In this document: positions 10,987 to 53,239 of the stretch, piece by piece
How the letters are laid out: each line of letters starts with the position of its first letter
How positions within the stretch are numbered: position 1 is the first letter of the stretch
Assembly: GCF_000236865.1 (NCBI RefSeq)
Contig: NZ_HE611014.1
Coordinates: forward strand, 219,876-273,149
Source: Senegalimassilia anaerobia JC110
GTDB lineage: Bacteria; Actinomycetota; Coriobacteriia; Coriobacteriales; Eggerthellaceae
DNA: 53,274 nt
Direction of reading: 5' to 3'
Notes under the pieces: generated by a model
What the model was told of the DNA's origin: nothing
The model's input: the letters and a program-made list of their open reading frames with translations, nothing else
The model's database searches: none
Made by a program: the position numbers and the translations under genes

Positions 10987-13900
10987 ATGGCGATACTATC
11001 TTTGACTCGCCGCAGCTTCCTGAAGGCGTCCGCTATGGCGGGTGCCGCCGCGACCGTGGGGTTCGCGGCAGCGCCGTCCGCGGCTCTGGCCGAAGGCGCC
11101 GACCCGACGGCCGGCGAAGTGAAGCGCATCCGCTCGTGCTGCCGTGCGTGCGGCAAGGTCGAGTGCGGCACGTGGGTCACCGTTCAGGACAACAAGGTGA
11201 TCAAGGTCGAGGGCGATGAGTCCAACGCTCACAGCCGCGGTCACTGCTGCGCGAAGTCTCAGTCGTCGATGCTCGCACTGTACCACCCCGATCGTCTGCG
11301 CTACTGCCTGAAGCGCACGAACCCCAAGGGCGAGGACGATCCCGGTTGGGTCCGCATTTCCCTGGCCGATGCCTTCGATGAGGCCGGCGCCAAGCTCAAC
11401 GAGATCGTGGAGAAGTACGGCGGAGAGGCCAATTTCGCCATGGGCGGCACGTCCCGCGTGTGGGCACAGCCCCCGTACGGCACGCTGAAGTCCATCTTCC
11501 CGACCCCGAACGCCCATCTTGCGTACGAGATCTGCAAGGGCCCGCGCCACTTCGCCGGTATCCTGACCGACGAGATCGGCTCGCCCTGGATGGAAGTCGA
11601 GCAGGGTCCGCTGGTGTACGTGCAGTGGGGCACCGCCGCCGAGTACTCCAACTACGACTCCACGAACCGCACGGTCGTGGACTGCTCGCAGCGCGCTTAC
11701 AAGCATATATTGGTGGACCCGCGCATGACGCCGCTGGGAAAGGAAGCCGACCTGTGGCTGCCGCTGCGCGTCGGTACCGACCTGTGCCTTTCCCTGACCT
11801 GGCTCAAGTGGATCCTGGACAACGAGGCCTATGACGACCTGTTCGTCCGCCGTTGGACCAACGCCCCGTTCCTGTGGAACCCCGAGAAGGACGGCCGCAC
11901 GAAGAAGGGCTGGTTCCAGGAGATGAACGGCGGCGTGGATATGGAATCCCGTATCCTGACCGAGGCCGATGTCGACCGCGAGTGGATCAGCCAGTGGTGG
12001 GAGCCGGCGGACGAGAAGTACAGCTATCGCCGCTTCATCTGCTGGGACGAGAACAACAACAAGCCCACCTACTGGGATGCCGAGGCGTGCCAGTGGGAAG
12101 GCGAGAAGCATAAGATCCCGACGACCGGCACCTGGATCGAGCATCCGTACAAGCCGATCATCGCCGACGCATGGCTTCCCGACCCGTCGCACTTCGCCGA
12201 CCCGGCCGACCCGTCCTACGACGCGTATTGGAACGAGGGCAACGAGGGCGGCAAGAAGTCCAACCCCATGGGCCTGCCGAAGAACCCCGCGCTGTTCCCC
12301 GGCGGCGTGGACATCAAGCTGAAGAACGGCACCACCATCAAGGCCGGCACCGTTTGGGAGGCCTTCTCCGACAGCCTGTCCGAGTACACGCCCGAGTACT
12401 GCGAGAGCGTGACCGAGGTTCCCGCCGAGAAGATCGTCGAGGCCGTGAAGATCTACACCACGCGCCTGAACCCCCTGCACGGCAACGGCGGCATCCACTA
12501 CCAGCTGGCTCCCGACCAGACGGGCCACGCGGTGCAGAACTCCCGTGCCCTGCAGCTGATCGCCTGCATCACCGGCAACTCCGACGAGCCCGCCGGCAAC
12601 CGCGGCTCCTCCAAGGCCGAGGTCGACGGCTGCTGCGGCCGCGCGAACATGAAGGTCACCGACCATGCTCCTCAGGACTGGGGCATCCGCGAGGGCGTTG
12701 GCACCATGGAGCTGGGCAACACCCCGCGCGACCTGTCCATCGAGGACCAGGTGCCGCTGATCCAGAGCTTCGTGCAGCACCTCATCGACGTGAAGTCCCC
12801 GCTGGCCGAGCGCTATGGCAACCACGTGCCCTCCGCCGAGGAGGCTCGCTGGATCGCCGAGCGCAAGGGCGGCGCCTACAAGAGCTCCCGCGCATGGCCG
12901 GGCCTGAAGACCAGCTTCGACAGCAATGCCAAGCAGATCTCCGCAGAGCGCTTCCCGCTGCTTCGCTACTGGAACCGCTGGGCCGACTCCGCGACCATCT
13001 GGGACTCCATCAACGGCATCGACACCCCGTATCAGATCCACGGCGGCGTGTGCATGTCCGGCGACTTCATGAACGAGTCCAACCTGCTTGAGGCCTGGGA
13101 GGCCCTGACCCGCCTGGACTTCTGGCTGGACTTCAACCTGTGGAGCTGCCCGAACAACGGCTGCGCCGACATCGTCATCCCCGTCCTGCACTGGCTCGAG
13201 GTCAACACCGGCCGCGTGTCCCAGGGCGCCGGCGGCATCTTCGGCGCAGGTCAGCGCGCCGTCGAGCCGATGGGCGATTGTATCTACGACCCGGTCGCCG
13301 TCATCTGCCTGTACCTGGGCATGGCGAAGGCGGTCTCGGGCAAGGAGCATCCGACCCGCGCCGACATCCCTGCCGACCGCACGTCCGTGATCTGGAACGA
13401 CCGCGACCTGAACTACGACGGCTGGAACAACCTGGACTACAACGAGTTCGTGCAGATGGGCGGCAGCATCACCTACGAGCAGCAGGAGTATCGCGTGCTC
13501 AAGGACGCTACCGACTGGTGGCGCATCGAGGAGTTCAAGGACAAGGAGAGCAAGCCCGAGCAGGTCATCCCGGCGTTCCCAAGCTATGCCGACGCCGAGA
13601 AGCCCGCGCAGGCCATCAACGACGTGGCGGGCCCGGACTTCCCCGAGTACGCCGCGAAGTTCCAGGAAGAGGGCTGGTTTGACTGCCGCAAGTGGCATCC
13701 CGAGCGTTGGGGCACGTATCGTCGCTGGGAGATGGGTTACCGTCGCCAGCAGGGCGGCTACAACCTGTACTCCGCCGTCGACGAGAAGTGCGGCTTCATG
13801 ACCCCGACCGCCAAGGTCGAGGTGTGGTCCACCATCGCCGAGACCTACATCCCGGACACCACCAAGACGTTCGCGGAGAGCTGCAGCCCGGACCGTGCCG

Positions 13901-40731: not shown

Positions 40732-41367
40732 ATGAGCTCGTACACCACCATCGAGGGGCGCGCCGTCGCCGAGATCGAGGAGAAGAAAAGCCGCTTCATC
40801 GCCAGCCTGGCCCATGTGGAGACCGAGGAAGAGGCGCTGGCGTTCCTCGAGGAGATCCGTGCGGCGAACCGCATGGCGCGTCACAACGTGTATGCATATA
40901 TCCTGCGCCAGGGCGGCGCGGGTGCCGCAGGGCGCGTTCGCTATTCCGACGATGGCGAGCCTCAGAAGACCGCGGGCCTGCCCACTCTCGAGGTGCTGCA
41001 GCATGCGGGGCTGACCGACGTGGTGTGCGTGGTCACGCGCTATTTCGGCGGCGTGCTGCTGGGCACGGGCGGCTTGGTTCGCGCCTACACCCAGTCAACT
41101 CAGGCGGGTATCGATGCCGCGCAGTTGGTGGTGGTGTCGCGCTGCGTGGATTTGCGCATCCGCATAGCGTACCCGCGTTACGAGCAGCTGATGCGTCTGG
41201 CGGAAGACCACGGCGCCAAGGTGCTGTCAACCGATTTCGCCGATGCGGTCACCATGAACCTGCGCATGCTCGATGGCACGCAGCAGCCTCTGCTTGATGC
41301 GCTGACGGCGCTGGAGCGCGGCCAGGAGGACGTGGAGGTCGGCGACCCCATAGACGCCGCTTTCTAG
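40732..41367 (+). CDS. YigZ/IMPACT-family protein
   Basis: 211 residues. The UPF0029 domain is clear: KKSRFIASLAHVETEEEA, RYSDDGEPQKTAG, VVTRYFGGVLLGTGGLVRAY. A DUF1949-type C-terminal domain follows. The family is thought to act on translation or RNA, but bacterial function is not settled. The ATG at 40732 lies 7 nt after the antiporter stop. Its stop (TAG) shares CTAG with the stop of the convergent luxR gene, so the two genes overlap tail to tail by 3-4 nt. Confidence 0.92.
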   Translation: MSSYTTIEGRAVAEIEEKKSRFIASLAHVETEEEALAFLEEIRAANRMARHNVYAYILRQGGAGAAGRVRYSDDGEPQKTAGLPTLEVLQHAGLTDVVCVVTRYFGGVLLGTGGLVRAYTQSTQAGIDAAQLVVVSRCVDLRIRIAYPRYEQLMRLAEDHGAKVLSTDFADAVTMNLRMLDGTQQPLLDALTALERGQEDVEVGDPIDAAF

Positions 41368-43271
41368 GACGTGTACTGGTCCATGAAGTCCAGAATCTCT
41401 TGGCGGGAGTGCAGGCCCGTTTTCGCGTAGATGCGCTTGATGTGGGCGTGTGCGGTGCTGGGGCTGATGTAAAGTTCCTCGGCAACGCGCTTCTGCGTCC
41501 AGCCCAGCGCGTACAGCGCAAGCACTTCCACCTCGCGGTCGGAGAGCAGGAACTGCTTGCCCATCTGCTCGGCATTGTTTCGCATGGTGGCCTTGCGGAT
41601 ATCGGCGATGGAATCGCCCTCGTCAAGGCCCATCAGCCGCACCAGCCGCATCCCGCGTTTGGAACCGGGCTGCGCGTTGCGGCTCTCGTCCGCCGTTTCG
41701 TCCTGATCGACGCTTTCGATGGGCATTACCCCTGCGCATTGCAAGGGGTTCGGGGTACCGACCGCACCGGCGGTACCGGCGCCCATAGGCGCCGCATTTG
41801 CGCAAGCGGCGCACTCGCTGTATTCGCCAGCGTTGTTTTTCAAGATCGTGAGCGCTTCCACATTCGCTTGCGCCCGCGACAGCTGCTTCTCCAGGCGCTC
41901 CATGCGGCGTACGTGCAGATCGTGGCGCTCATCGGCTTCCATCTGGGAGACCTTGAGGAACTGGCCGAGCGCCACCTGCGTGGAGATGACCACGCAGGTG
42001 CCCATGATGGCGTTGATGAGCAGGTCGTTCGTGGAAAGCGACTGCACGTTTATCAGCGTCACGCGCGCGATGGCGCGGCAGCCGAGCCACACGATCCAGC
42101 CGCCCAGCGCGTAGTAATACGGGTCGCGCCAGCCGAAGCTCATAAATGCGATGATGATGTACCAGGTGAACGCTACCAGCAGCGCATTGAGCGTGGTGGT
42201 GAACACCGCGCCGATGTCCGGCATATCGGGGAAGGCCGCATACAGCACCAGTGCGGCGCACGCGAACAGCTCCAAGAGGATGAACATGCCCACGGTCATG
42301 ACGCTCTTGCGCTTGTGCATCATCAAGGAAATGACGATGACGCAAATGGCTATGGTGAGCAGGCCATATGCAACCCGGGTGGCGGGCTGGAACGCGATGG
42401 GCGTACCGTCTGGGTAGCCGCGCAAGAAGCCGTCCACGATGGAGAGCACGCCGATGCTCGTTGCCGTCGCCGTGAGGAAGCGCTTGCTCGACAGCAACGT
42501 GGTGGCGAATCCGAAGAAGTCGTCGTTGGGCGTGAACGACTCGATATCGTTCGCCAGCTTGTTCTTGCGCGCGCTCAGCATGCAGGGGAACTGCAGGAGG
42601 GAGAGAGCGGCGGCAACGTAGAAGCCGTAGGTGCCGATGAGCGAGCAAACGTATATTTCCACCTCGCTGATGGCAAGGGCGCTGAACACATACAGCACGG
42701 CGGTGGTGCTGCCGCATCCGCGTGCGCGGCGCAGCCAATAGAAGATGGCGAACGATGCGAAGAACGTGACGGTCGCGCATAGCCAGAAATGCACGTTCGG
42801 CCAGAAGGCGCCTGCAATGTGGGCCAGGGGAAGCAGCAGCACGCACAGCGCCTCCAATGCAACGCACGTGCGCATGATGCGGTTGGTGGTGCGCTTTTTC
42901 AGGCGGATCTTCCGCGCTCCGATGACAAGCAGGATAACGGCCATGAAGGAAAGCGCCACGAGCATGCTGCCATCGGTGAATATCCCCTCATCGGTGTGGG
43001 TATAGCTGCCGTAGCCGGCAACGATAAGCCCCGCGCGCGCGAAGCACAGGCCCAAGATGGAGGGGAGGAGCGGGATGTACAGGCTGAGCAGCTTCATGCC
43101 GGTTGGCATAGGGTGAGCGGCGTCGTCGGGCGTAAGGCGGCCTGTGCGCGTTCGAGCACTCGGCTTCGCGCCGACGGCGCTTGAAGCGCTTGCCGGTTGT
43201 CCAGAGGCCGAGGCCCCTCCGTGCCGTTGTGCGCGCTGAGCGATCGAATCGCCCGTTTCGTTGATCCTCAC
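41364..43271 (-). CDS. Multi-spanning membrane protein with C-terminal LuxR helix-turn-helix
   Basis: 635 residues. A Ser/Ala/Arg-rich N-terminus (1-55) precedes about 11-12 membrane helices (residues ~60-440). A helical linker (SQMEADERHDLHVRRMERLEKQL) and a flexible segment follow. The LuxR HTH is at the end: FLLSDREVEVLALYALG, EELYISPSTAHAHIKRIY. This 12-TM-LuxR layout is abundant in Eggerthellaceae, where such proteins often control neighbouring respiratory enzymes. The start is GTG 43271, 4 nt after a perfect AGGAGG; the longer frame starting TTG has no site. A palindrome upstream may be its own operator. Confidence 0.88.
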   Translation of the reverse strand: MRINETGDSIAQRAQRHGGASASGQPASASSAVGAKPSARTRTGRLTPDDAAHPMPTGMKLLSLYIPLLPSILGLCFARAGLIVAGYGSYTHTDEGIFTDGSMLVALSFMAVILLVIGARKIRLKKRTTNRIMRTCVALEALCVLLLPLAHIAGAFWPNVHFWLCATVTFFASFAIFYWLRRARGCGSTTAVLYVFSALAISEVEIYVCSLIGTYGFYVAAALSLLQFPCMLSARKNKLANDIESFTPNDDFFGFATTLLSSKRFLTATATSIGVLSIVDGFLRGYPDGTPIAFQPATRVAYGLLTIAICVIVISLMMHKRKSVMTVGMFILLELFACAALVLYAAFPDMPDIGAVFTTTLNALLVAFTWYIIIAFMSFGWRDPYYYALGGWIVWLGCRAIARVTLINVQSLSTNDLLINAIMGTCVVISTQVALGQFLKVSQMEADERHDLHVRRMERLEKQLSRAQANVEALTILKNNAGEYSECAACANAAPMGAGTAGAVGTPNPLQCAGVMPIESVDQDETADESRNAQPGSKRGMRLVRLMGLDEGDSIADIRKATMRNNAEQMGKQFLLSDREVEVLALYALGWTQKRVAEELYISPSTAHAHIKRIYAKTGLHSRQEILDFMDQYTS

Positions 43272-43448: not shown

Positions 43449-44108
43449 ATGGCGAACGAGCAGGAAATCACGTTCGATGAGCCGGATGAGGGCCGTGACA
43501 TCTACCACGAGCCGGACGACCGTGCGCTCATCCGCACGAAGGACGTGTACCAGACCGAGCTGGACAACGGCGTGGAAGGCTACTCGGAAACGATGCTCGC
43601 CATCGTGGCGAACTTCAAGAACGCCGGCAAGCCCGAGGGCTTCAACGTGCAGAGCATGGTGGGCAAGTCGAAGCGCGGCGAGGTGGCGTTGCGCCTGTTC
43701 GCGGTGGTCGACGACTCCGTTGCCGACCCGGTGTTCGTGAAGGTGGGCTTCAAGAGCCGCGGGTGCCTGGCCATGACCGGTTGTGCAAGCGCCATCTGCT
43801 CCATGATCGAGGGCAAGACGTTCTCGCAGGCGTTGGAGCTGACGCCCAAGGACGTGGAGCTTGCGGTAGACGGCGTGCCGAAGGGCAAGGGGCATACCAC
43901 CCTGTTCGCCATCGAGGCCGTGCGCGGCCTGGTGGGCGACTGGATGTACCGTTGCGGCATGCCGCTTGCGGAGATGGACGAGAAGCTGCCCTGCGACGAG
44001 ATGTCGGTGGCGTGCTTGATGTGCGAGCATTGCAGCCTGCGCGACACGCGCGTCGAGATGAGGGTTAACGAGGCCATCGCGAAGCAGAAGGCCGGCGAGG
44101 CGAAATGA
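43449..44108 (+). CDS. IscU/NifU-N-like scaffold protein lacking two canonical cysteines
   Basis: 219 residues. Residues 45-165 align by eye with IscU: the N-terminal ETMLAIVANFKNAGKPEGFN, then FKSRGCLAMTGCASAICSMIEGKT with Cys106 at the IscU Cys63 position. The first IscU ligand (ACGD) is replaced by KRGE (Arg76), and the third (HC) by HT (His149-Thr150). Extra cysteines occur nearby (GCASAIC) and at the end (CLMCEHC). So it keeps the fold and one ligand but has moved the others. It may bind a different cluster, or serve as a redox or carrier protein. It overlaps the next gene by ATGA. An acidic N-terminus (1-32) is extra. Confidence 0.75.
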   Translation: MANEQEITFDEPDEGRDIYHEPDDRALIRTKDVYQTELDNGVEGYSETMLAIVANFKNAGKPEGFNVQSMVGKSKRGEVALRLFAVVDDSVADPVFVKVGFKSRGCLAMTGCASAICSMIEGKTFSQALELTPKDVELAVDGVPKGKGHTTLFAIEAVRGLVGDWMYRCGMPLAEMDEKLPCDEMSVACLMCEHCSLRDTRVEMRVNEAIAKQKAGEAK

Positions 44109-45331
44109 GCGAGCAGATGAAGACGGCCGGGGAGCCTCTGGGCCAGGATGTCGTTTCGGAAGACGCGGAATCGGCGGTGGGGGAGGTTGCCGCCAACCAG
44201 GGCGTCGCAGCCGCTGGGAATGCGGAAGCTGCCGCAGTCGGCGTCGATGAGGCGCCTGAAGGGGAAGCGGCCGACGAGCCCACGGAGGAGGAGCTTGCGG
44301 CCGCACGCGAGCTGGCGGAGAACAACGCACTTGCCGATGTGTTCGATGACGTGCGCAAACAGTCTGCCGACAGCCACCTGGTCACGCCCGAGCGTTGGCC
44401 TGAGATCGGCTTGGTGCCCGAGCATATGACGGCCGAGGACTTCGAGATGTTCGTGTACGAATGGCTCGATGATTACCAGGCGGAACACAAGGAAGAGATC
44501 GAGGCGGAACGCGCCGCCGAGCGCGCGAAGGCCGCCGCGGTGCGTTCTGCCACTCGAGCGGTGGGCGTGCCCCCGAAGATCCCGAACCGCCGCTTGAAGC
44601 AGATCGAGGCCGACAACGAGGCGAAGGCGGCCGAGGCTGCCGATAAGGCGCCGGAAGCCGTTGAGGATTCCGCTGAAGCCGAGTCCGCCGCGGGCGTCGA
44701 TGCTTCCGTGCAGGTCGATAACGCTGCGGAATCCGCCGAAAGCGCCGCCGTCGCCGTAACGCCTGCGGCTTCCGAGCCCGCCACGGCTTCCCCTGATAGC
44801 GCAGCCGAAGATGACCAGCCTGCCGAGGACGACAGGAGCCCCTTCGCCGGCTTGCGCATCCCCGAGGGCTACCGCCTTGAGCAGATCGACGGCGAATGGG
44901 TGCTTGTGGAGGACGAGAACGCGGCACCCGTGCGCAAGGAGATCAAGTGCAACCGCATCAAGGTGCTCATGGGTATGCACAGCTACTACCTGTACGATGA
45001 GACGCTCATGACTGCCAGCTACGCGCGCTGGGCGTTCCTAGCGGCCGAGGACAACCCGGTGGTAACGTTCGTCGAATGCGTGCGCGAGGATTCGCGCGTG
45101 TACCCTCGCCCCTATGCCGCCGAGTGCCTGAAGAACCCGCCCTTCCGCATGACCGACGAGCAGATCGAGGAAACGTGGCAGGCTGTGCGCGATTCCGGCA
45201 ACTATCCGGACATCGAGCGCACCGAGGCATCCAACGGCGACGTGTACTACTATTCCACGCAGTACCTCGAGTCCGGCTATGCGGCATCGCTGGCCGAATA
45301 CGATGCGGTGGAGCGCCCCGCCGACGTGTAA
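44105..45331 (+). CDS. Unknown acidic protein, coupled to the IscU-like gene
   Basis: 408 residues, family not recognised. Residues 1-75 are acidic and Ala/Glu-rich; residues 80-165 are helical, with basic patches (SATRAVGVPPKIPNRRLK). Residues 190-255 are a low-complexity Ala/Ser/Asp/Glu linker. The C-terminal ~145 residues look globular (PFAGLRIPEGYRLEQIDGEW, SYYLYDETLMTASYARWAFL). There is no signal or membrane segment. Overlap of ATG with the previous stop (ATGA at 44105-44108) implies obligate co-expression, so it may be a partner of the IscU-like protein. Confidence 0.8.
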   Translation: MSEQMKTAGEPLGQDVVSEDAESAVGEVAANQGVAAAGNAEAAAVGVDEAPEGEAADEPTEEELAAARELAENNALADVFDDVRKQSADSHLVTPERWPEIGLVPEHMTAEDFEMFVYEWLDDYQAEHKEEIEAERAAERAKAAAVRSATRAVGVPPKIPNRRLKQIEADNEAKAAEAADKAPEAVEDSAEAESAAGVDASVQVDNAAESAESAAVAVTPAASEPATASPDSAAEDDQPAEDDRSPFAGLRIPEGYRLEQIDGEWVLVEDENAAPVRKEIKCNRIKVLMGMHSYYLYDETLMTASYARWAFLAAEDNPVVTFVECVREDSRVYPRPYAAECLKNPPFRMTDEQIEETWQAVRDSGNYPDIERTEASNGDVYYYSTQYLESGYAASLAEYDAVERPADV

Positions 45332-45509: not shown

Positions 45510-47648
45510 TTACGGCAGCAGGTTCAGGCTCTGCAGCTCGGCCTTGACGTCGTCCATGCCGTAGTAGTCCAGGCAGTCGGCCGTCGGGCAGCCTTTCTCG
45601 GAATCCCAACCAAACTTCTCGTACAGCATGGTCAGGCCCTTCTGGAAGTCTTCCTTCTCCATCTTGTCGGTGCCCTTGGTGAACGGCTCCTTGTCCGGGT
45701 CCTTGGTGAACGGCCACTGGGTGATGACGTCGTGGATGGTGCGGCAGTCGTTGCAGCCGATCTTGCCGTCCTTGTCGGTCATGCCGCGCACGGTGTTGGC
45801 GCGCTGCAGCGTCATGATCTTAGCGGCGCGCTTGTACAGCTCGTCGGTGGTGATGTCCTCGCCGGTGACGGCCTTGTAGAACTTGGCCTCCAGGTCGAGG
45901 TCGCCGCGGTAGTTACGGCTCTTCGACGGGGACTGGGCCATCGGCCACACCCAGTTGCACAGCGTCAGCGAGTCATGCAGCACGTCGGTGACGATGGACC
46001 ACCAGCAGAAGTTCGCCTTGTGCTCATTCATCGGCTTGTAGTCCTTGGCGTCGTCCAGAGCGTCCTCGCCGCCCCACAGCTCGGCAGCGATCTGCTGCTT
46101 CAGCTCATGCGGAAGGCCGCACTGCAGCATGTTCTGATGCGAGTGGATCATGGGGTCGCGGTTGAACACCATGTTCAGCAGGCCGCCGACCTGGCCGTAG
46201 GACTCGATTGCGTGGTGCACCGGCCAGCCGCGGTAGTTGATCAGGCAGCTAGCGGTGGTGTCGAACCACTCCATGTCGTCCCAGCGCGGGCACCACACGA
46301 GCGGGCCGTGGCCAAGGTAGGACATCTCGTTGTCGTTCTGGGCGATGTGCTTGAGCAGTTCGACCATGATGGTCGGGTCGTTCTTCTCGAACTTGGTCCA
46401 GTCGAACATGTTGTACTCGGCCTCGGGCAGCACCTTCTTGAAGATGCCCTTGGACACGCAGTGCGCGATGTCGCGGTAAATCTGAGCGTAGTTGCACCAC
46501 ATGCCCAGGTCGTCCATCGTGCCGCCGACAACCTGGTCCCAGATCAGGCCGTCCTCGGTGGAAGCCTTGACGGGGGTGTGCTCGCCCAGGATCTTCACCA
46601 TGTAAATGGAGAACGGGAAGTTCGGCACGCAGGTGTTGCCGGTGATCTCGAAGCCGCCGTTCTTCTTGGCGTTCGGCACGCGCATGTCGGAGTAGCAGTG
46701 AATCGGGCAGCTGTGGCAGCCGTTCATCTTGATGGTGTACTTCTCGGCCTCGGGACCCTCGTCCTTGGTGGTCTTCATGCAGCGGTAGCCGACGGTGTTG
46801 ATCTCGCCCGGCTTCGGTTCGCCGGTCTCGATCGGCTCGCCCTCGGCGTCGGCCCAGTACAGGCCCTTGCGAGCAGTCCAACGGGTGCCCTTGTCGTAGT
46901 ACTCTGCCCATTCCTGCTGGGTGGACGGCACGACATGGTTGTTGTTGGAGCCGACGATCTCGCGCAGCATGTAGTCGGACAGATCGGCCAGGGCCTTCGG
47001 GTCCTTGACGTTCACGCTGCCGTTGCCCTCGACGACCAGTGCCTTGAGCTTCTTGGAGCCCATGATGGTGCCCAGGCCAGCGCCGGCGGAGTGGTTACGG
47101 GAGTTCATCATGACGGCGTAGGGCAGCAGGTTCTCACCGGCAGGACCGATGGTCGCCACGCAGGCACGGTTGCCCTCGAGGCGGTTCAAAGCCTCGGTGG
47201 TGGAACGGGTGCCCATGCCCCAGACGAAGGAGGCGTCCTTGATCTCGACCTGATCGTCCTTGATGTGCAGGTACACCGGCTTGTCGGATTTGCCCTCGAC
47301 GATGATGGCATCGTAACCGGCCAGCTTGATGCGGGCGCCGATCATGCCGCCGCAGTGTGCGTCGACGACCAGATGGTCCTTGCTGAACGTGGACAGGAAG
47401 CTGATGGTGGTACGGCCAGCCAGCGGCACGCCGGAAGCGGTCAGCGGACCGACGGCGTAAACGATCTTGGACTCCTCGGAAAGAGGATCGGTGCCAGCGG
47501 GCACCTCATCGTACATGATCTTGTTGGCAAGGCCCATGCCGCCGATGTATTCCTTATAAGGTGCGGTGGACTCGGTGGTGATGCTGCCCGTCGTCAGATT
47601 GACGCGCAGGATCTTGCCGGCCCAGCCGTATGACTTCTCGTCAGCCAT
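45510..47648 (-). CDS. Aldehyde ferredoxin oxidoreductase (AOR) family tungsten enzyme
   Basis: 712 residues, longer than archaeal AOR (about 600) and near the YdhV-like group. The N-terminal domain reads GKILRVNLTTG, EYIGGMGLANKIM and AGRTTISFLSTFSKDH. The [4Fe-4S] ligands are CHSCPIHC (Cys311, 314, 318) with a late Cys in KIGCNDC. The tungstopterin contact segment AGAGLGTIMGSKKLKA is intact. There is no signal peptide, so it is cytosolic. Members oxidise aldehydes or related compounds with ferredoxin; substrate is unknown. The ATG at 47648 follows GGAGAT. It is divergent from a Tat-type ferredoxin, as ydhV is near ydhY in enterics. Confidence 0.92.
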   Translation of the reverse strand: MADEKSYGWAGKILRVNLTTGSITTESTAPYKEYIGGMGLANKIMYDEVPAGTDPLSEESKIVYAVGPLTASGVPLAGRTTISFLSTFSKDHLVVDAHCGGMIGARIKLAGYDAIIVEGKSDKPVYLHIKDDQVEIKDASFVWGMGTRSTTEALNRLEGNRACVATIGPAGENLLPYAVMMNSRNHSAGAGLGTIMGSKKLKALVVEGNGSVNVKDPKALADLSDYMLREIVGSNNNHVVPSTQQEWAEYYDKGTRWTARKGLYWADAEGEPIETGEPKPGEINTVGYRCMKTTKDEGPEAEKYTIKMNGCHSCPIHCYSDMRVPNAKKNGGFEITGNTCVPNFPFSIYMVKILGEHTPVKASTEDGLIWDQVVGGTMDDLGMWCNYAQIYRDIAHCVSKGIFKKVLPEAEYNMFDWTKFEKNDPTIMVELLKHIAQNDNEMSYLGHGPLVWCPRWDDMEWFDTTASCLINYRGWPVHHAIESYGQVGGLLNMVFNRDPMIHSHQNMLQCGLPHELKQQIAAELWGGEDALDDAKDYKPMNEHKANFCWWSIVTDVLHDSLTLCNWVWPMAQSPSKSRNYRGDLDLEAKFYKAVTGEDITTDELYKRAAKIMTLQRANTVRGMTDKDGKIGCNDCRTIHDVITQWPFTKDPDKEPFTKGTDKMEKEDFQKGLTMLYEKFGWDSEKGCPTADCLDYYGMDDVKAELQSLNLLP

Positions 47649-48033: not shown

Positions 48034-48723
48034 ATGTCAGATACGAATACAAGCGGCAGCGCCCCGGTCAAGAAGAACATCACCCGCCGTGACGTGCTGG
48101 CCATGGCCGGCTGCGGCGTTGCAGGTTTGGTCGTCGGCGGCGCGCTGGCCAGCTGGGGCGTCACCCAGGAGTCCATCGCATCCGGCCGCATCGAGCTGCG
48201 CACCACGCCCACCAAGATGATCGTCACCGATCGCGCCCGTTGCTCGGGTTGCCAGCGCTGCGAGATGATGTGCACGTTGAAGAACGACGGCCGCGTGTGC
48301 CAGCACATCGCCCGCGTGCGTGTGTGGGATAACTATTACTGGGGCAAGTCCGCCGACACCGGCGACGGCTCCTTCGGCGACGGCAAGGGTGCTTGCGAGT
48401 TCACCGTCGAGCACTGCAAGCAGTGCGCCGACGCGCAGTGCGTGAAGTACTGCCCGGTCCACGCCATCTACGCCGACGAGAAGACCGGCGCCCGCACGGT
48501 CGACACCAAGAAGTGCATCGGCTGCGGCATGTGCAGCCAGGCTTGCCCCTGGAACATGCCCCGCGTCGACACCGAGACCGGCGTGTCCACGAAGTGCATC
48601 TCCTGCGGCCGCTGCGCCGAGCAGTGCCCCAATGGCGCCATCCAGTTCATCGATTGGCAGGATATCGCGCAGAAGATCATCGACGAGGGCATCGTTCGTA
48701 CGACGACCGCGGTCACCGCGTAA
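48034..48723 (+). CDS. Tat-type four-cluster ferredoxin paired with the AOR enzyme (YdhY-like)
   Basis: 229 residues. The N-terminus has a twin-arginine, hydrophobic segment (TRRDVLAMAGCGVAGLVVGG, residues 12-31). Four cluster motifs follow: CSGCQRCEMMC, CKQCADAQCVKYCP, CIGCGMCSQACP and CISCGRCAEQCP. It probably moves electrons between AOR and another carrier. If exported, it would be separated from the signal-less AOR, so the segment may act as a membrane anchor. The start follows GAGGGGGAG. A CCCGCGC/GCGCGGG hairpin (48760-48778) lies before the chaperone gene. Confidence 0.88.
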   Translation: MSDTNTSGSAPVKKNITRRDVLAMAGCGVAGLVVGGALASWGVTQESIASGRIELRTTPTKMIVTDRARCSGCQRCEMMCTLKNDGRVCQHIARVRVWDNYYWGKSADTGDGSFGDGKGACEFTVEHCKQCADAQCVKYCPVHAIYADEKTGARTVDTKKCIGCGMCSQACPWNMPRVDTETGVSTKCISCGRCAEQCPNGAIQFIDWQDIAQKIIDEGIVRTTTAVTA

Positions 48724-48832: not shown

Positions 48833-49525
48833 ATGATGGACGACGCAGCGGTGTTCTCGGTGCTTTCGAAGTGCTTCGGTTCCGTTGAGAAGGACGAATG
48901 GAAGCAGATGACGCGCAGCGCTGCCTGGGCCGAGTTCATGGACGGCGTTCGCCGTCTTTTGCAGGACGACACGCGTTTCGGCAAGCAGGCAACCCCCATC
49001 GAGCGCATGCATGTGCGCGCGCCCATGCAGGAATTCCTTTCCGCCAACGAGGTCGACGAGCTGTTCTGCCCTCCGCTTTTCGATGAGAAGCAGGGTTTTG
49101 CGGCGCGTCACTTCACCGGAGGGCTTCCCCAGTCGGCGATTCCGGTGGAATCGCTGTACACGGATTGGAACACTCCCGACAACGTGAATCCGCTCATCGG
49201 CAAGCAGAAGGGCCTGTACCTGGGCGCTTCGGCGCGTTACATGCGGGCATTGATCGAGCAGCTGGGCCTGGAGGTGCCGGCGGAATACGCCGACTGCCCC
49301 GATCACCTGGCATTGGAGCTTGACCTGGTGGCAGTTCTGCTGCGAAGCGGCATGGACGCCGAGGCTCGACAGTTTGTGGCCGAGCGCTTCGATTGGTTGA
49401 CCGACTACCGGTTGAAGTTGCTGAAGCTTGACGATGACGCGCGGTTCTACATCAGCCTGGTCGACGTGATCTTGGGCATTTGCGCGGAACAGCGCGCGGA
49501 GTCCGAGTCCGACCAGACGGCTTGA
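48833..49525 (+). CDS. TorD/DmsD-family redox-enzyme maturation chaperone
   Basis: 230 residues, all helical. The family motif region reads EYADCPDHLALELDLVAVLL (PDH with hydrophobic helix) and VAERFDWLTDYRLKLL. These proteins bind the Tat signal of molybdoenzymes and help insert the cofactor in the cytosol. It lies just before a Tat-exported reductase, its likely client. The start is ATG 48833 behind AAGGAAAGGAG; ATG 48836 is an equal alternative. Confidence 0.88.
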   Translation: MMDDAAVFSVLSKCFGSVEKDEWKQMTRSAAWAEFMDGVRRLLQDDTRFGKQATPIERMHVRAPMQEFLSANEVDELFCPPLFDEKQGFAARHFTGGLPQSAIPVESLYTDWNTPDNVNPLIGKQKGLYLGASARYMRALIEQLGLEVPAEYADCPDHLALELDLVAVLLRSGMDAEARQFVAERFDWLTDYRLKLLKLDDDARFYISLVDVILGICAEQRAESESDQTA

Positions 49526-49584
49526 TGGCGGTTCGCATCATGGATGAAACGATGACGCAGGATGCATATAGAGAGGAATCAGCA

Positions 49585-51789
49585 ATGTCAGAAAACGCTA
49601 TTACCAGGCGAAGCTTTCTGGCCGGCAGCGCCGGGGTCGCAGCAGTAGCGGCCGGCGCGGGCTTCATGAGCTTCGGCGCCTGGGAGCAGGCTGACGCGAG
49701 CGGGACGAAGGATGTGGAATCCCACACCGCTTACTCGCTGTGCAACTCCTGCTCTTCCAAGTGCGGGTTCAAGGGGTACGTGGTCGACGGCAAGCTCACC
49801 AAGATGATCGGCGAGCCCAGCCATCCCCACTGCGAGGGCACGCTGTGCGGCCGCGCATACGGCTACGCGTCCATCGCCTACTCCGAGGACCGCTTGACCG
49901 ACCCCTTGAAGAAGAACGCCAAGGGCGAGTTCGAGAAGATCAGCTGGGACCAGGCCTACTCCGAGATCGCCGAGAAGGTCAAGTCCATCATCGGCTCCGA
50001 CGGCCCCGAGGCCCTGGCCATGGTCCAGGACCCGCGCCCGTCCGGCTCCTACTACACCAAGCGCTTCATGCAGGCGCTCGGCAGCGCCAACGTGTACACG
50101 CACGGCGCGGCCTGCAACATGTCGAAGAACTCCGGCTTCACGCAGGTCATCGGCGCGGGCGACTACCTGGCCGACGTCGAGAACGCCAAGGCCTGCATGT
50201 TCATCGGCCGCAGCTACGCCGACGCCATCCGCCCGAGCCAGCTGCACGCCCTGGAGAAGGCGCACGAGAACGGCGCGTACATCGTGCTGGTCGACCCGCG
50301 CCTGAACAACTCCATCGCCTTCGCCGACGAGTGGCTGCCCATCAACCCGGGCACCGACCTGGCGCTGGTGCTGGCCATGAGCCACGTGCTCGTCGACCGC
50401 GGCCTGTACGACAAGAAGTTCGTGTCCGAGCAGGCAACCGGCTTCGACGAGTGGGCCGCCACCCTGGGACAGTACACGCCCGAGTGGGCAGCTGAGATCA
50501 CCGGCCTGAAGGCCATCGACATCGAGCGCGTCGCGGTGAAGTTCGCCGAGTGCGCCCCGGCCGCCTGCATCGAGCCCAGCTGGCGCGGCGCCTATGGCTG
50601 CAGCTATGCCAACTCCGGCGAGACCGCCCGCGCCGTGGCCTGCTTCAACGGCCTTCTAGGCTGCTGGAACCAGAAGGGCGGCGCCCTGTTCAGCGCGTCG
50701 GTCAAGGCCGGTGACGTGGACAAGGCCAAGTTCCCGTCCGTGCCCAAGGTCGAGGCGAAGATCGCCGGCCAGTCCGAGTACCCGCTGTCCCTGTCCGGCA
50801 TGGGCGTCAACGTCTACGCCGCGCAGCTTGCCAAGGAAGGCAAGATGAAGGGCATGTTCTTCTACAACTCCAACATGGTGGCGGGCTATTCCAACCCGGC
50901 CTACCTGCAGGAGTGCCTGGCCAACCTGGAGCTGTCGGTGTGCATCGACGTCCAGATGACCGAGACGTGCCACGCGTGCGACTACGTCCTGCCCGACACC
51001 AGCTACCTCGAGCGCCTCGAGCTCCCCGAGTTCTACGGCGGCAAGATCCCGGCCGTGGCCATCCGCGACCAGGTCATCGAGAAGGTGCACCCCAACACCA
51101 AGCCCGTCGACCAGATCTTCTCCGAGCTGGCCGATGCGTGCGGCGTGGGCCAGTACTTCGACTTCACCGTCGAGGAGCTCGCCGATGCACAGCTCAAGAC
51201 CGTGGGCCTGTCCCTCGACGGCCTGCGCGCCTGCGGCGTGAGCACCTTCCCCGAGAAGGCGTTCAAGTACGGCTCGTACCCGAAGTGGAAGACGCCCTCC
51301 GGCAAGTTCCAGTTCGCCTCCGATGCCTGCGAGAAGGCGGGCCTGCCCCGCACCCCGCAGTGGCTTGAGCCCGCGGTGGCCGTGCCCGAGGACGGCAAGT
51401 CCTTCCGCCTGATCGGCGGCAAGCAGGCCATCCACACCCACACGCAGACCGCCGACTGCGAGCCGCTCATGGCCATCACGAAGCAGTACGGCCTCGAGCG
51501 CGTGTGGATGAACGCCCAGCGCGCCGAGGAGCTCGGCATCTCCGACGGCGACACCGTCGAGGTCTCCAACGAGCAGCACACGGGCAAGGTCCAGGTGAAG
51601 GTCACCCAGCGCATCAACCCCGACGCGCTGTACATGCCCAGCCACTACGGCTGCTCCTCGAAGGAGGAGAAGACGGCGTACGGCGTCGGCCTGCGCCAGA
51701 TGGACTACGTGCCCTTCCGCATCGAGCCCGGCTACGGCGGAATCTGCTCCCAGGAGGCCGTCGTCACCGTCAAGAAAGTAGGTGCATAG
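49585..51789 (+). CDS. PsrA/PhsA-like Tat-exported molybdopterin reductase
   Basis: 734 residues, typical of polysulfide/thiosulfate reductases. Twin-arginine signal ITRRSFLAGSAGVAAVAAG; Fe-S ligands CNSCSSKCGFK then CGRAY (C-x2-C-x3-C-x27-C). A Cys in THGAACNMSKNSG is the probable Mo ligand. The C-terminal domain ends YMPSHYGCSSKEEK and VGLRQMDYVP. It should reduce polysulfide, thiosulfate or a related acceptor outside the membrane with menaquinol electrons. The start at 49585 has GAGAGGAA. It is followed at 3 nt by its ferredoxin subunit. Confidence 0.9.
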   Translation: MSENAITRRSFLAGSAGVAAVAAGAGFMSFGAWEQADASGTKDVESHTAYSLCNSCSSKCGFKGYVVDGKLTKMIGEPSHPHCEGTLCGRAYGYASIAYSEDRLTDPLKKNAKGEFEKISWDQAYSEIAEKVKSIIGSDGPEALAMVQDPRPSGSYYTKRFMQALGSANVYTHGAACNMSKNSGFTQVIGAGDYLADVENAKACMFIGRSYADAIRPSQLHALEKAHENGAYIVLVDPRLNNSIAFADEWLPINPGTDLALVLAMSHVLVDRGLYDKKFVSEQATGFDEWAATLGQYTPEWAAEITGLKAIDIERVAVKFAECAPAACIEPSWRGAYGCSYANSGETARAVACFNGLLGCWNQKGGALFSASVKAGDVDKAKFPSVPKVEAKIAGQSEYPLSLSGMGVNVYAAQLAKEGKMKGMFFYNSNMVAGYSNPAYLQECLANLELSVCIDVQMTETCHACDYVLPDTSYLERLELPEFYGGKIPAVAIRDQVIEKVHPNTKPVDQIFSELADACGVGQYFDFTVEELADAQLKTVGLSLDGLRACGVSTFPEKAFKYGSYPKWKTPSGKFQFASDACEKAGLPRTPQWLEPAVAVPEDGKSFRLIGGKQAIHTHTQTADCEPLMAITKQYGLERVWMNAQRAEELGISDGDTVEVSNEQHTGKVQVKVTQRINPDALYMPSHYGCSSKEEKTAYGVGLRQMDYVPFRIEPGYGGICSQEAVVTVKKVGA

Positions 51790-52342: not shown

Positions 52343-53239
52343 ATGGAGTACACACCTATTTGGAGCGGCATCATCGCCTGCTATCTGTTCCTAGGCGGCC
52401 TGGGCGGCGGCGCGTTCGCCACCTCGGCCTTCCTGGCCTGGCGTCATCCCGAGGCGGTCACCATGCGCAAGCTCGGCCACTGGATCGCGCCGATCGTCGT
52501 CATCGTCGGCCTCGTGCTGCTGATGTTCGACGCCAAGGCGGGCCTGCACAACCCGCTGCGCTTCGCGCTGCTGCTGACCAACTTCGGGTCCGTGATGACC
52601 TGGGGCGTCGTCATCCTGGCCGCGTTCGTGATCGTCGCGCTGGTCGCGCTGATCATGGACCTGAAGAAGCGCCGCGTGCCCATGGCCCTCGAGATCGTCG
52701 GCGCGGTGCTCGGCATCTGCGTGGCCATCTACACCGGCTGCCTGCTGGGCGTGTGCAAGACGTTCCCGCTGTGGAACAACGCGCTGCTGCCCATCCTGTT
52801 CCTGGTGTCTGCCGTGTCCACGGGCATGGCCGCCGTGCTGCTGGCCGGCGTGTTCAAGTGCCCCGAGGAGTTCAACCGCGTGGGCGTGCTCAAGAAGTTC
52901 CACTTCTGCTTCCCGTGCATCGAGATGCTGCTGGTGGCGGCGCTGCTGTTCATCACGGCGACCAACTCCACCGCGGGCCTGGCCTCGGTGCAGGCGCTGG
53001 CGTGCGGCAGGTACGCCGTGGTCTTCTGGGTGCTGTTCGTCGCCGTGGGCCTGGTGATCCCGACGGTGCTGGAGACCAAGATGCTGTTCTTCAGCCCCAA
53101 GGAGTTCGAGGAGTCCCGCAAGGCCCACATGATCAGCGCCGGCTCCGACATCGGCGTGCTGGTCGGCGGCTTCGTGCTGCGCCTTCTGGTGCTGCTGGCC
53201 GCGCTGCCGGTGACCATGACGGTCGCCTGGACGCTCTAG
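52343..53239 (+). CDS. NrfD/PsrC-like quinol-binding membrane anchor
   Basis: 298 residues with about eight helices. The N-terminus GIIACYLFLGGLGGGAFATSAF is the NrfD first-helix signature (GGxGGG). This subunit oxidises menaquinol and delivers electrons to the ferredoxin subunit. It is the last gene in the window. Downstream (53240-53274), GC-rich CCGCGGGGCGGGGCGCC sequence may begin a terminator, cut off by the window end. Confidence 0.92.
   Translation: MEYTPIWSGIIACYLFLGGLGGGAFATSAFLAWRHPEAVTMRKLGHWIAPIVVIVGLVLLMFDAKAGLHNPLRFALLLTNFGSVMTWGVVILAAFVIVALVALIMDLKKRRVPMALEIVGAVLGICVAIYTGCLLGVCKTFPLWNNALLPILFLVSAVSTGMAAVLLAGVFKCPEEFNRVGVLKKFHFCFPCIEMLLVAALLFITATNSTAGLASVQALACGRYAVVFWVLFVAVGLVIPTVLETKMLFFSPKEFEESRKAHMISAGSDIGVLVGGFVLRLLVLLAALPVTMTVAWTL

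Follow-up and report, generated by a model that had tools for sequence, protein, structure and literature searches.

What an IscU-like protein that has lost two of its cluster ligands does beside a set of redox enzymes is the question raised by one locus in the 53,274-nucleotide stretch of Senegalimassilia anaerobia JC110 analyzed here (hereafter the window; contig NZ_HE611014.1, positions 219,876 to 273,149). The gene at issue (43449..44108, forward strand) encodes 219 amino acids and is joined, through a shared ATGA stop/start overlap (44105..44108, forward strand) already pointed out in an earlier note on this DNA, to the gene for an acidic protein of 408 residues (44105..45331, forward strand; pI about 4.2). 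The large subunit of a tungsten/molybdenum oxidoreductase (45510..47648, reverse strand; 712 residues) and a YdhY-like 4Fe-4S ferredoxin subunit (48034..48723, forward strand) with a Tat-type N-terminus (TRRDVLAMAG) lie downstream of the pair. Beyond them are found a NarJ/TorD-type chaperone with a molybdopterin oxidoreductase (48833..51789, forward strand), which occur in only part of the related loci and are placed outside the core unit, and an NrfD-type membrane subunit (52343..53239, forward strand), likewise present in part of the loci. On the other side, a membrane LuxR-type regulator is encoded divergently (41364..43097, reverse strand; start codon uncertain) and is kept in 70 of 80 loci.

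The family to which the 219-residue protein belongs can be approached through its open reading frame, profile matches, a fold model and an alignment of orthologues. Residues 45-165 match PF01592 (NifU_N) with 44.3 bits (E 2.4e-11; gathering score 22), and an AlphaFold2 model built from 27 orthologues (mean pLDDT 89.2, pTM 0.83) has as its best structural match the IscU of A. fulgidus (4eb5_C; Z 17.6 over 138 residues, rmsd 2.0), with the A. aeolicus, E. coli and human IscU proteins among the other top matches. The profile match and the structural matches therefore identify the predicted fold as that of IscU, and not an unrelated one, which agrees with the resemblance claimed in the earlier note and places the modeled protein in the IscU/NifU_N superfamily. 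Within NCBIfam the closest model is clostridial NifU (TIGR03419), ahead of NifU, IscU and SufU, but the equivalog cut-offs of all four are missed by far (51.7 bits against 187.9, 44 against 273.3, 27.5 against 192.4 and 13.3 against 92.5, respectively). In common with IscU and the clostridial-type NifU, the Coriobacterial protein keeps the fold (residues 45-175), the position equivalent to Cys63 and the conserved GF..(R)GC and VP..K segments. Unlike them, it replaces Cys37 by R, K, H or S, Asp39 by E, T, S or V and Cys106 by T, reduces the LPPVK motif to VPxxK/R, and adds a C-terminal motif; it is, moreover, tied to one enzyme. SufU, a zinc-dependent sulfurtransferase, belongs to the same fold superfamily, but its three-Cys zinc site is lacking here, two of the three cysteines being missing. 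At the N-terminus, an RTxDxYQ motif occupies residues 29-35, with R29-T30 invariant (77/77 orthologues), and the C-terminal cysteine extension, at about residues 173-219, is confidently modeled (block-mean pLDDT 90-96 over residues 181-219).

In IscU, the thiolates of Cys37, Cys63 and Cys106 accept sulfur and build the [2Fe-2S] cluster. Because the patterns used to scan genome contigs included part of the C-terminal motif of the family, the cysteine counts were redone on 77 orthologues gathered by similarity, without use of the motif. The two substitutions noticed at the outset hold across this set: the Cys37 position, Arg76 in the window, is occupied by R, H, K or S in the 77 orthologues (R, K or H in 76) and by Cys in none, and the Cys106 position, Thr150 (43896..43898, forward strand), carries Thr in 68 of them and Cys in a single one. 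The Cys63 equivalent, C106 (43764..43766, forward strand), is indeed present here, as had been stated, but it cannot be called kept throughout the family, since it is Cys in 71 of 77 orthologues, Asp in four and Ser in two. The alignment on which these equivalences stand is sound, because canonical NifU copies in related bacteria and the SufU of the same genome retain all three cysteines together with Asp39. The latter position (residue 78) is never Asp in the orthologues (E in 51, T in 24, S and V in one each), whereas K75, in the former Cys37 loop (residues 72-78, GKSKRGE; 43662..43682, forward strand), is invariant (77/77) and position 147 is K or R in 75/77. In the four orthologues with Asp106, which form one lineage, Arg is found at position 150 and His or Arg at position 76; in that lineage the old pocket therefore cannot bind a cluster as IscU does, and it is unlikely to be the metal site. 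None of the 77 orthologues regains three cysteines in the same pocket, and the protein lacks the residues on which de novo cluster assembly, as described for IscU, depends. A larger set of 87 orthologues reveals, in addition, an acid swap within the loop (window 43668-43682), with S74/E78 in 56 and E74/T78 in 27; the two positions flank the invariant K75, as if the loop had to keep one acid.

New cysteines are found elsewhere in the protein. Those highlighted in the earlier note, in GCASAIC (C112, C117) and CLMCEHC (C189, C192, C195), are all present, but C112 and C117 vary among orthologues. The tail motif, C182-x6-C189-x2-C192-E-x-C195-S-L-R (residues 182-198; 43992..44042, forward strand), lies outside the NifU_N domain and has the family form C-x6-C-x2-[CTAS]-E-x-C-S-L-R, in which C182, C189, C195, S196 and R198 are invariant (77/77) and C192 is Cys in 48/77. 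At least four of C106, C182, C189, C192 and C195 are found in every one of the 77 orthologues. All six orthologues without C106 have C192, but mutual exclusion of the two residues was not upheld, with p = 0.08 among sequences that are related and not independent.

The 408-residue partner, formerly thought to belong to no recognized family, can now be assigned to one. Its residues 276-403 (44930..45313, forward strand) match NCBIfam NF007411 (YdhW; E 1.9e-26), as do all 32 of its aligned homologues, and a profile made from the Coriobacterial sequences recovers E. coli YdhW (E 3.1e-34), a Proteus homologue and the protein adjoining the Cetobacterium large subunit. With 93.3 bits to NF007411 it stays below the equivalog cut-off of 203, and its sequence marks it as a diverged relative of YdhW, not an equivalog. 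YdhW is an unexplained product of the E. coli ydhYVWXUT operon, which encodes a clade-41 "Class V" oxidoreductase. Like its E. coli counterpart, the Coriobacterial protein is encoded next to YdhV and YdhY genes and contains the internal repeat seen within the YdhW family; unlike it, it has long acidic linkers and an IscU-like partner, to which it is often fused. A conserved N-terminal part (about residues 68-150) is followed by a low-complexity acidic linker and a conserved C-terminal part.

The large subunit encoded next to the pair contains AFOR_N and AFOR_C domains and is 50% identical to E. coli YdhV. A published tree of these enzymes distinguishes 92 clades, of which clade 41 constitutes Class V of the tungsten-containing oxidoreductases, with Coriobacteria listed among its hosts (PMC13328260). 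The YdhV-like large subunit and the Tat-type ferredoxin subunit both resemble those of Class V, and we infer from the identity to YdhV and from the published host list that the enzyme probably falls in clade 41. The Coriobacterial clade-41 large subunits have extra conserved cysteines (in window numbering, C290 in 73/75, C510 in 72/75, C692 in 67/75 and C99 in 57/75) that the enzymes of E. coli, Proteus and Cetobacterium lack, and among which covariation gave no disulfide-like pairs. A second clade-41 large subunit sits beside the first in some genomes (L037, at 11351-13486; L104; G253).

To what extent the IscU-like protein, its partner and this enzyme belong together was examined in 80 loci from a genome collection, all from Coriobacteriia. 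The suggestion that the downstream acidic protein is a constant partner is well supported, as the YdhW gene adjoins or is fused to the IscU-like gene in 78 of these loci, the remaining two being contigs shorter than 4.2 kb. YdhW precedes the IscU-like gene in 41 loci, the order is reversed in 22 and the two form a single fused frame in 15. A tree of the IscU-like protein implies a minimum of five changes in fusion state and of two in gene order; adjacency has thus outlived rearrangement. The clade-41 oxidoreductase lies within the DNA examined around 66 of the 80 loci and is absent from two of the 51 full-length ones. In L064 (Gordonibacter pamelaeae) and L107, the pair has no such gene within 9 kb, and the enzyme is presumably encoded elsewhere in the genome. 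A survey of 296 Coriobacteriia genomes, in which the oxidoreductase was counted at 60% identity or more, found the IscU-like gene in 71 and the enzyme in 73 (Fisher p about 7e-67, without correction for relatedness), with no case among them of an IscU-like gene without the enzyme. Both genomes with the enzyme and no IscU-like gene are explained by contig breaks, the contig ending inside YdhW in one (G006) and just past the oxidoreductase gene in the other (G289). Of 49 full-length loci that have the clade-41 oxidoreductase, on the other hand, 22 lack the neighboring molybdopterin enzyme, and hence it is the oxidoreductase that the pair follows. The earlier idea of a tie to the nearby redox enzymes is accordingly upheld as a coupling to the clade-41 enzyme, and not to molybdoenzymes in general.

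Outside this group, the association takes a simpler form. Two distant Coriobacteriia genomes (G156 and G178) encode an oxidoreductase 39% identical to that of the window; in G156 the genes for ferredoxin, oxidoreductase and YdhW follow one another and an IscU-like gene is absent, the G178 contig ends at the oxidoreductase, and neither genome yields an IscU-like match at E 1e-30. The comparison beyond Coriobacteriia covered E. coli, Proteus and Cetobacterium; in these three loci no IscU-like gene was found beside the clade-41 enzyme, while YdhW adjoins YdhV in all of them, as it does in G156. YdhW is thus the general partner of these enzymes and the IscU-like protein a Coriobacterial addition, one that cannot be universally needed, since the E. 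coli, Proteus, Cetobacterium and G156 loci lack it.

Given that the IscU-like protein always occurs with YdhW, at times in the same polypeptide, and with one tungsten/molybdenum enzyme, it is probably a dedicated helper. We put at roughly 0.5 the probability that the pair is an assembly or maturation module dedicated to the Coriobacterial clade-41 (YdhV-type) oxidoreductase, with YdhW acting as adaptor. YdhW would dock on the large subunit while this is still cytoplasmic, ahead of its export through the Tat system with the ferredoxin subunit. The IscU-fold protein may receive a ready-made unit, most likely a cluster from SUF, from the housekeeping machinery, hold it at its C-terminal cysteines and hand it to the large subunit. 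Cofactor loading should take place in the cytoplasm, where the pair would reside, because neither protein of the pair has a signal peptide, as judged by eye from sequence, and the ferredoxin subunit is of Tat type. General cluster assembly is covered in this genome by a SUF operon distinct from the pair, in which SufU is intact. When expressed heterologously without its operon, a clade-41 large subunit was partly loaded in the case of E. coli and inactive in that of C. somerae (PMC13328260).

Several other explanations have to be weighed against such a module. That the pair delivers sulfur or the pterin cofactor, the basic pocket handling a metal-pterin or an oxyanion or the tail cysteines relaying persulfide, is unlikely in our estimation and still a serious rival, on account of that pocket (K75, R/K/H76, K/R147), the distribution of FdhD and a co-purification result. 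FdhD serves formate dehydrogenases as a sulfurtransferase, and the IscU-like protein might be its analogue, as a factor devoted to the sulfur or cofactor supply of a pterin enzyme, although the two are tied by genome distribution only and we know of no sequence relationship between them. FdhD (PF02634) was not found in the 99.96% complete source genome, in spite of the two molybdopterin-enzyme clusters in the window, nor in ten other genomes with both the oxidoreductase and the IscU-like gene; it is present where the clade-41 locus has no IscU-like gene, in E. coli and the two distant Coriobacteriia genomes, and in Cetobacterium it lies inside the clade-41 operon. Its absence, however, may merely reflect that of formate dehydrogenases, many genomes have both, sulfuration is no known requirement of clade-41 enzymes and a persulfide relay normally requires a conserved solvent-exposed cysteine. 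A cysteine desulfurase did co-purify with a recombinant clade-41 large subunit, but was considered unrelated by the authors (PMC13328260, section 12). The bolder version of this idea, in which the IscU fold has been turned into a dedicated metal-pterin or sulfur carrier with a basic anion pocket and new tail thiolates, replacing, together with YdhW, the FdhD type of maturation in gut Coriobacteria, seems to us quite improbable.

It is also doubtful that the two proteins are structural or electron-transfer subunits of the Coriobacterial enzyme, the tail cysteines permanently holding a cluster or zinc. Strict co-occurrence with the oxidoreductase and the invariance of C182, C189 and C195 are consistent with such a role, and the third protein of C. 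somerae has itself been regarded as possibly a subunit (PMC13328260, section 12). Against it, the pair forms its own transcription unit of variable order, and in 42 of 66 loci this unit lies on the strand opposite to the oxidoreductase, an arrangement more in keeping with an accessory role than with a stoichiometric subunit; in addition, the acidic linkers of YdhW are long and poorly conserved, and no signal peptide is seen on either protein. The pair might instead be a sensor-regulator, with the IscU-fold protein responding to the state of metal or clusters and YdhW as the DNA-binding part at the promoter of the divergent LuxR gene; this would agree with the presence of that regulator gene next door and with a YdhW model resembling tandem winged helices that the acidic linker separates. 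This reading is very unlikely, as the matches of the model are weak, with no convincing fold match in the structure library (Foldseek E >0.1, best Z 7.5), and the protein is strongly acidic, both conserved parts having a pI below 4.5 (E. coli YdhW, 4.6). Finally, the fold and the PF01592 match would suit an ordinary IscU-type scaffold that tolerates substitutions, but this is hardly credible when the whole family has replaced Cys37 and Cys106 as well as the residue at Asp39, the pocket of one lineage reads H/R-D-R, the equivalog cut-offs are missed so widely and the genome already possesses SufU and SUF.

The enzyme class, YdhW and the IscU fold were already known, and it is the IscU-like partner that appears to be undescribed, as we found no description of it. 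The open-licence papers searched contain nothing relevant on an IscU- or NifU-like protein with tungsten, AOR or molybdoenzymes, and NifU, IscU or a scaffold go unmentioned in the main text of the 2026 classification paper (PMC13328260). The clade-41 enzyme thereby gains two concrete partners, YdhW across phyla and an obligate IscU-fold protein in Coriobacteria, the latter being an IscU fold that selection has maintained beyond the loss of its defining chemistry. The natural fusions of the two are well suited to structure work. Elsewhere in the window, the segment 10942-18271 encodes another large molybdopterin enzyme of Tat type along with a ferredoxin and a membrane subunit, and after them a pair of NapG/NapH-like ferredoxins, in an arrangement that we take to resemble the dehydroxylase clusters of Eggerthellaceae.
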